This document shows, piece after piece, positions 12,764-14,025 of a stretch of 64,000 bases of DNA. The translations under genes were made by a program, and so were the position numbers. The stretch is from Elusimicrobiota bacterium (GTDB lineage: Bacteria > Elusimicrobiota > Elusimicrobia > Elusimicrobiales > UBA9959). Positions within the stretch are counted from its first letter, which is position 1. Each line of letters starts with the position of its first letter. The notes beneath the pieces are model-generated. The model saw only the letters and a program-made list of their open reading frames with translations. It had not been told where the DNA came from and did not search any database. The stretch spans positions 62,001-126,000 of the forward strand of contig JAPLKI010000022.1 in NCBI GenBank assembly GCA_026388155.1. Reading direction: 5' to 3'.

Positions 12764-12899
12764 GTCTGAGCGTCTGAGCGTCTGAGGGTCTAAGCGTCTA
12801 AGAGTCTAAGAGTCTGAAAGTCAAAGAATTATAAATCCTGATTCCCAGACTCTAAGACCCTAAGACGCTACGACTCTCAGACTCTACGACCCTGAGTCC
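12761..12899 (+). repeat. Word-repeat palindrome D (GNGTCTRA words)
   Basis: The left arm is seven or eight tandem 8-mers of the form GNGTCTRA, starting at the copA stop codon. The middle is AAAGAATTATAAATCCTGATTCCC. The right arm is complementary words (AGACTCTAAG, ACCCTAAG, ACGCTACG, ACTCTCAG, ACTCTACG). It ends about 10 nt before the queF ribosome site. The words match those of palindrome N at 51.1 kb. Confidence 0.8.
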
Positions 12900-13325: not shown

Positions 13326-13398
13326 GATGGTCGACGCAAGCTTAGCGATATGGTGAGTCTCCAGAAAACTCAAAAAACATCCTCCCATTTGTAGCAGG

Positions 13399-13427
13399 TT
13401 GCTGTCATAAAAAATATATTATAAAAT
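13399..13427 (+). promoter_or_regulatory. Promoter (TTGCTG-17-TAAAAT) before the structured element and tRNA-Val
   Basis: A -35-like TTGCTG (13399-13404) and a -10-like TAAAAT (13422-13427) are separated by exactly 17 nt, which predicts a transcript starting near 13434, just before the first repeat unit. The stretch 13326-13398 after queF holds nothing I can recognise. Confidence 0.6.
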
Positions 13428-13433
13428 CAATTA

Positions 13434-13844
13434 AGCGTTACCCGCGCAATGTGGGCGGGGCGCGATAGGCCCGTGCGATTACCTTCGTTAGTGAGCACGG
13501 GTTCCTTATAGGAGAGGTTCAGTGAGCGGTTCCGGCTTAATGCCGGAATAGCGAGCGACGAAGGGGAACTTAGTTCCCCTCTTGGAGCGCCGGCCGTCAC
13601 CGATTAAAGGCCGGCGTTAATCGTCCCGCGCGCTGTGCAGTGCGGCGCGGGATGCGATAAGCCGCGCGAATACCTTCGTAGTGAGCGCGGTTATACCCCT
13701 TAAAAGGGGTTCAGCGAGCGTCCGCCTGAGGCGGAAAGCGAGCGACGAAGGGGAGCTTAGCTCCCCTTGTGGAGCACCGGCCGTCACCGATTAAAGGCCG
13801 GCGTTAATCGTCCCGCGCGCTGTGCAGTGCGGCGCGGGATGCGA
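13434..13844 (+). ncRNA. Tandem structured element (2 full units plus one hairpin), probable non-coding RNA
   Basis: Unit 1 is about 13441-13624, unit 2 about 13625-13811, and the first hairpin of a third unit spans 13812-13844; 68 nt are identical between units (13590-13657 and 13777-13844). Each full unit has the same stems: a GC hairpin; CCGTGC/GCACGG (CCGCGC/GCGCGG in unit 2); a short hairpin at 13503 or 13695; TTCCGGC/GCCGGAA (TCCGCC/GGCGGA); GGGGAACT/AGTTCCCC (GGGGAGCT/AGCTCCCC); and CCGGCC/GGCCGG. CCTTCGT in the second hairpin's loop can pair with ACGAAGG about 70 nt downstream, closing a multibranch or pseudoknot fold. The stems differ in sequence but keep pairing, which favours a structured RNA. 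It has its own promoter and lies 6 nt before tRNA-Val. Function unknown. Confidence 0.6.
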
Positions 13845-13849
13845 CCAGA

Positions 13850-13924
13850 GCCCAGTTGGCGCAGCGGTAGCGCGTTCCCTTGACATGGGAAAGGTCACAG
13901 GTTCGATCCCTGTACTGGGCACCA
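13850..13924 (+). tRNA. tRNA-Val (anticodon GAC), CCA encoded
   Basis: The acceptor stem is GCCCAGT/ACTGGGC, followed by A-CCA. The D arm is GCGC-AGCGGTA-GCGC. The anticodon stem TTCCC/GGGAA encloses the loop TTGACAT (anticodon GAC). The T loop is TTCGATC. It is transcribed downstream of the structured tandem element and upstream of palindrome E and thrS. Confidence 0.96.
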
Positions 13925-13928
13925 CTTT

Positions 13929-14020
13929 AACAGCAGGGGATAGCGGCTAGAGGTCAGGGGTTAAGGGAAGGAGTTCCTTACCCTCTAAACCCTCGCTCCT
14001 CTCCCCTGGCCCCTGTTTTT
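13929..14020 (+). repeat. Word-repeat palindrome E (GNGGNTA words), possible terminator
   Basis: Left words GGGGATA, GCGGCTA, GAGGTCA and GGGGTTA, then the core AAGGAGTTCCTTA, then right words CCCTCTA, AACCCTC, GCTCCTC, TCCCCTG, GCCCCTG. The outermost CAGGGG/CCCCTG pair is followed by TTTTT, so this copy could end the tRNA-Val transcript. Words match palindrome A. Confidence 0.75.
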
Positions 14021-14025
14021 ATACT

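Follow-up and report, generated by a model that had tools for sequence, protein, structure and literature searches.

An RNA element of about 190 bases, found so far only in Elusimicrobiota bacteria, has been copied many times and sits directly in front of tRNA, tmRNA and protein genes with almost nucleotide precision. We believe this points to an undescribed kind of removable or regulatory RNA leader, although removal and regulation are both inferred from sequence alone. The element first came to attention as a pair of tandem units upstream of a tRNA-Val gene in the window, by which we mean the whole 64,000-nucleotide stretch of an Elusimicrobiota genome (G000) that was analysed. Those two units are only two of about 24 copies in this genome and of at least 181 copies examined across the phylum. 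Every copy that can be assigned to a gene runs in the same direction as the gene behind it.

The tandem units before tRNA-Val

The region 13434-13846 of the window holds a 25-nt remnant and two full units of a structured repeat, all on the forward strand. Unit 1 lies at 13466-13657, as found by the covariance models described below and by the alignment of copies, and unit 2 lies at 13658-13846 and ends GGGATGCGACC. The two form a direct repeat of 108 nt at 95% identity with a spacing of 187. Upstream of them at 13441-13465 (+) is what remains of an older copy, only its 3' hairpin and GCGA, and similar remnants are found before tmRNA and tRNA-Val in the relatives G002, G067, G078, G010 and G061. 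A 3-nt spacer, AGA, at 13847-13849 (+) separates unit 2 from the tRNA-Val (GAC) gene at 13850-13924 (+), which was identified by both ARAGORN and the Rfam tRNA model. Both units fold far below dinucleotide shuffles (z of -5.6 and -4.3).

The preliminary description reported these units, with three stems whose two strands are replaced together between the copies, and this observation is confirmed. All three paired replacements are present. It also placed a promoter, TTGCTG-17-TAAAAT, just before unit 1. The sequence is there at 13399-13427 (+), with TATAAA at 13420, but it is a weak sigma-70-like consensus that fails a scan requiring 9 of 12 matches. It is still the likeliest place for the tRNA-Val promoter since only 3 nt separate the array from the tRNA. 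A closing helix, the many other copies in the genome and the fixed distance to genes had not been noticed.

Distribution across the phylum

A search with the DNA itself finds 31 places in G000, and a covariance model built from 11 copies (R1) finds 24 good places. In 61 relatives, 24 genomes have matches, all in the same family. A second model limited to the shared core (R2, 144 positions) finds the element in 41 of 59 genomes of the family and in 58 of 341 genomes of the phylum, covering 22 of 100 genera and several families and classes. R2 recovers both units of the window at E of about 1e-28 and 1e-30; the core of unit 1 (13516-13659, +) scores 120 bits and the core of unit 2 (13708-13846, +, from GGTTCAG to GCGACM) scores 129 bits, but unit 2 is in the seed alignment of that model. 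An exact core pattern run against 84,980 bacterial and archaeal species genomes gave 35 stretches, all of them named Elusimicrobia or Elusimicrobiales. This pattern covers only one subtype, so it does not prove absence elsewhere. The same exact pattern was not found in viral contigs.

No Rfam 15 family reaches its gathering threshold over the element; only the tRNA matches in the window, and permissive scans of the element and of distant copies give only chance-level hits over it. Searches of the literature, limited to an open library, found nothing that matches, and one paper on non-coding RNAs in 50 genomes does not mention Elusimicrobi.

A core fold supported by compensatory change

On 56 copies of the core, a structure of 28 pairs has 97.4% of cells paired and 21 pairs with changes on both sides, with a covariation score of 0.373 against 0.152 in shuffles and at most 0.10 in slid controls. 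On 43 matches in newly fetched loci, apart from the seed loci of the model, the figures are 98.6%, 23 of 28 pairs and 0.446, although that alignment is fitted to the model. The covariation score was reached in 0 of 500 shuffles. Covariation had been named beforehand as a test of the idea of a structured RNA, and by this criterion the element is a structured RNA as opposed to a plain DNA repeat.

The core consists of GGUUCAG, a helix with tandem G.A (GC-GA-GC with GC-GA-GC in many copies), a two-part hairpin (ACG/CGU and GGRGRGC/GCYCYCC), and a 3' domain of three hairpins that is closed by GCA/UGC with an invariant GA on the 3' side and ends in GCGACA. The closing pairs themselves change together, as GCA/UGC, GCG/CGC, GUA/UAC and ACA/UGU. 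The preliminary description proposed that CCTTCGT pairs with ACGAAGG to form a pseudoknot or multibranch closure. This pairing is present in both units and in most copies of the genus of the window (mean longest match of 6.4 against 4.2 shuffled in G000), but outside the genus it is weaker or different, and the ACG also pairs with CGU across the next hairpin with more covariation. We therefore reject the pseudoknot as a universal feature; it is well supported only in this genus.

It is more difficult to say whether the fold acts in RNA or in single-stranded DNA. An excess of G-U pairs over A-C mismatches would point to the transcribed strand, and it is clear when counted by cells (41:9 and 37:6) but weak when counted by distinct positions (13:9 and 6:6), so this test is only suggestive. 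A DNA-level mobile element, whose hairpins are recognition sites for a transposase or recombinase supplied in trans (HUH/IS200-like or integron-like) that inserts at a preferred site at gene starts, is not excluded. The copies with unrelated flanks, the precise 3' end, the nested insertions and the tandem copies described below would all fit it. However, strict orientation with the gene and a distance of 2-3 nt to RNA ends are not expected from a known HUH target, and we consider this reading unlikely. The element does not qualify as a MITE because by inspection it has no conserved terminal inverted repeat. Its ends are TAAG... and ...GCGACA, and only some copies of the group labelled g1 show a chance complementarity, CCCGCGC/GCGCGGG.

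Position relative to the downstream gene

Of 181 copies with flanking sequence, 85 precede a tRNA, 10 a tmRNA (more were recognised by eye), 50 a coding sequence and at least 15 another copy. The remaining cases are mostly copies where the model ran past its end, truncated tRNAs, contig ends, or a start codon without a clear ribosome site, and three loci (L141, L159 and L176) were left without an assignment. The spacer to the mature 5' end of the tRNA or tmRNA is 2 or 3 nt in about 80 of 95. Coding sequences start mostly 14-15 nt after the element, leaving just the Shine-Dalgarno sequence between them, and other copies end at the next tandem copy. The tRNAs involved are those of 12 amino acids, and in G000, 11 of the 42 tRNA genes detected carry the element. 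Copies in distant families and another class (G084, G090, G167, G172, G186 and G325) keep the same rule, including a tmRNA copy in G325.

The end motif is precise as well. Among 145 copies whose end matched a loose pattern, the base at +1 is a purine in 140. The G at -4 and the A at -3 are invariant in all 145, but the pattern itself demands them, so those two figures are partly built in while the +1 figure is not. One copy in G000 (locus L046 at about 1300-1500, G000:C17:47457) ends directly before a sequence that reads NWNNGANDGVFAFNANNAPSNSNDNIGFRC, like the template repeat of a diversity-generating retroelement.

This placement bears on several rival readings. A selfish repeat with no function in the host RNA, whose position reflects only where insertion is tolerated, would account for degraded remnants and lineage-specific copy numbers. 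However, tolerance alone does not fix the distance to 2-3 nt, and compensatory changes across classes show selection on the fold, and we consider this reading unlikely. A mobile promoter whose 3' end marks the transcription start would fit the distances to the tRNA and to the ribosome site. We regard it as very unlikely, since the 3' 40 nt are a G+C-rich hairpin without a -10 box, the TATA-like loop of some copies is absent in others, the RNA-type fold is conserved, and in the relative G034 the native TATAAT is kept upstream. A search for a positional peak of -10 boxes upstream of the core gave no clear peak, because the start of the core is not the start of the element, and claims about promoters therefore rest on orthologous sites.

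The strongest rival is a cis-regulatory leader RNA. In this view the fold senses a general signal, for example a protein or growth state, and controls transcription through the leader or access to the ribosome site, and it was spread because it brings many genes under one control. The structure is conserved at the level of the phylum, the same genes (tmRNA, the tRNA-Arg before the MPxxTWI gene, rpsU and spoVG) are occupied repeatedly by different subtypes, and in g1 the pseudoknot strand can pair in two ways. Against this, the genes downstream share no pathway, tRNAs and tmRNA cannot be controlled through a ribosome site, and presence is patchy even among close relatives. The same mixture of tRNAs, tmRNA and unrelated proteins argues against a metabolite riboswitch. 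An intrinsic attenuator is not supported either, since there is no terminator-like site in 13326-14025 of the window and most copies end in GCGACA. A cis-regulatory role is not excluded, but we hold it to be less likely than the reading we favour.

Empty sites and copying between loci

Orthologous sites without the element show that copies come and go at fixed places. Relatives that lack it (G023 and G071) have TATAAT about 14-15 nt before tRNA-Val, while G034 keeps this TATAAT and has the element between it and the tRNA. The tmRNA of G028, an empty site, reads ...CCCTTTGT up to the boundary with GGGGGC, while in G031, a filled site, the sequence is ...CAATTGT-TATAAG...GACAAGC up to the boundary with GGGGGT. 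The rpsU gene of G000 lacks the element, while G001 and G002 carry it directly before AAGGGTGGTGAT. The conserved gene pair rpsP-khpA is separated by a gap of roughly 13-20 nt in most relatives and by about 300 nt with the element in G000; G001 keeps only the two ends fused. The promoter, where it is seen, lies upstream of the element, which supports co-transcription with the gene without measuring it.

Within genomes, copies before unrelated genes reach 96-97% identity, and the similarity stops at GCGACA plus up to about 2 nt. On the 5' side the limits vary and often run into the 3' end of an older copy. Whether similarity follows the locus or the genome is mixed: the tmRNA copies of G035, G061 and G034 are each other's neighbours, while others resemble copies of their own genome. 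The tRNA-Arg before the MPxxTWI protein is occupied in many genomes by different subtypes. Both insertion and conversion between copies are probably needed to explain this, in our inference.

Two small palindromic inserts, gccgtctgatgggcatagccctttatacggc and ggggaaaccgcYatgcggtgtcccctcag, are nested inside copies of the element (loci L002, L016, L013; L012, L014, L019, L155). Truncated copies of the tRNA-Val 5' part (with GGGAAAGTATGAC) stand in tandem before the full tRNA-Val in several genomes (L227, L229, L242, L230, L219, L225, L308), and a truncated tRNA-Ser 5' half does likewise in G002 (L101). In the window, a long imperfect inverted repeat of gtctgag/gtctaag units lies at 12768-12899 directly before the queF ribosome site, and other simple hairpin repeats occupy the rpsU (L355) and tmRNA (L209) leaders of the same genome, so several repeat families share this niche.

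A leader that may be removed

The preliminary description offered three options, a new non-coding RNA, a processed leader of tRNA-Val, or a mobile structured repeat, and its interpretation is partly supported. The evidence favors a combination: an undescribed structured RNA that by its position and orientation lies in 5' leaders and has been copied around genomes. It is not specific to tRNA-Val, and processing is plausible but remains an inference.

Our best explanation is a dispersed, structured RNA element that lives in the 5' leader of genes and is probably co-transcribed with them. The analysis itself demonstrates that the element is multicopy, that its core fold is kept by compensatory change, that it always runs with the downstream gene where one could be assigned, that it ends 2-3 nt before mature tRNA and tmRNA ends or at the edge of the Shine-Dalgarno sequence, that it is absent from orthologous sites in relatives, and that it is copied between loci. 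What we infer beyond this is that it is transcribed as part of the leader, that it folds there, and that the RNA is cut at or beside its 3' end, between GYGACA and RR, by itself or by a host RNase. The tRNA, tmRNA or mRNA behind it would then be released almost as it would be without the insert, and this would let the element spread before essential genes at little cost. The placement is as intrusive as it can be, a stable fold 2-3 nt from the RNase P site or at the edge of the ribosome site. A leader that stays there should hinder, while a leader that is cut off at its 3' end would not. Against it, no known ribozyme family in Rfam matches the element, even at permissive thresholds. We put the probability of this reading as a whole, a leader with processing, at about 0.5. 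Copying could occur by insertion next to gene starts, by recombination between the repeated 3' ends, or through an RNA intermediate.

A bolder version is possible but much less likely than the general reading. The element could be a new class of self-cleaving, or dedicated-RNase-cleaved, mobile leader RNA that inserts at mature RNA 5' ends and removes itself from the transcript between GYGACA and RR, acting like an intron for 5' ends, and its mobile form may be the released leader RNA itself.

It is important to be clear about why this matters. We know of no other bacterial element that sits within 2-3 nt of mature tRNA and tmRNA 5' ends and also directly at ribosome sites, in one orientation, with a fold conserved across a phylum. 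If it cuts itself or is cut there, it is a new processing device or ribozyme class; if it regulates, it ties a quarter of the tRNA genes of this genome to one signal. In either case a model of 144 positions with about 180 copies makes it directly testable, and it gives a clean case of how a small element can spread before essential genes.

Comparison with known systems

The element resembles structured RNA families and self-cleaving ribozymes of Rfam in being a multi-helix RNA with tandem G.A and a precise end, but this is resemblance only, and no family reaches threshold over it. Yeast and Dictyostelium retrotransposons that integrate upstream of tRNA genes (PMC5911963, PMC5006619) are also mobile sequences with a preference for the 5' side of tRNA genes. 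These are eukaryotic, several kb long and protein-coding, they are placed upstream of pol III genes rather than within the last few nt of the leader, and they are not known to have CDS targets.

Rickettsia palindromic elements are small repeats found in RNA genes, including tmRNA (PMC2229807), but they lie inside genes and proteins while the element here lies outside, before the mature 5' end. The ERIC/IRU repeat (127 bp) of enterobacteria is co-transcribed and its orientation matters for mRNA stability (PMC2229807). We see no relation to it in sequence or structure. ERIC lies in many intergenic positions and is not known to be tied to tRNA 5' ends. The Correia/NEMIS repeats of Neisseria (about 107-155 bp) are short non-coding dispersed repeats near genes whose RNA is proposed to be cut by RNase III at its stem-loops (PMC2229807). 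NEMIS belong to the MITE group and have terminal inverted repeats, while the element here has no conserved terminal inverted repeat, is a multi-helix RNA, and abuts tRNA, tmRNA and ribosome-site positions in one orientation. None of NEMIS, ERIC, the Rickettsia elements or the retrotransposons is known to us to share the fold, the rule of one orientation, or the fixed distance to both tRNA ends and ribosome sites. We consider the element new in kind on that combination, while as a small dispersed repeat with RNA structure it works like NEMIS or ERIC.
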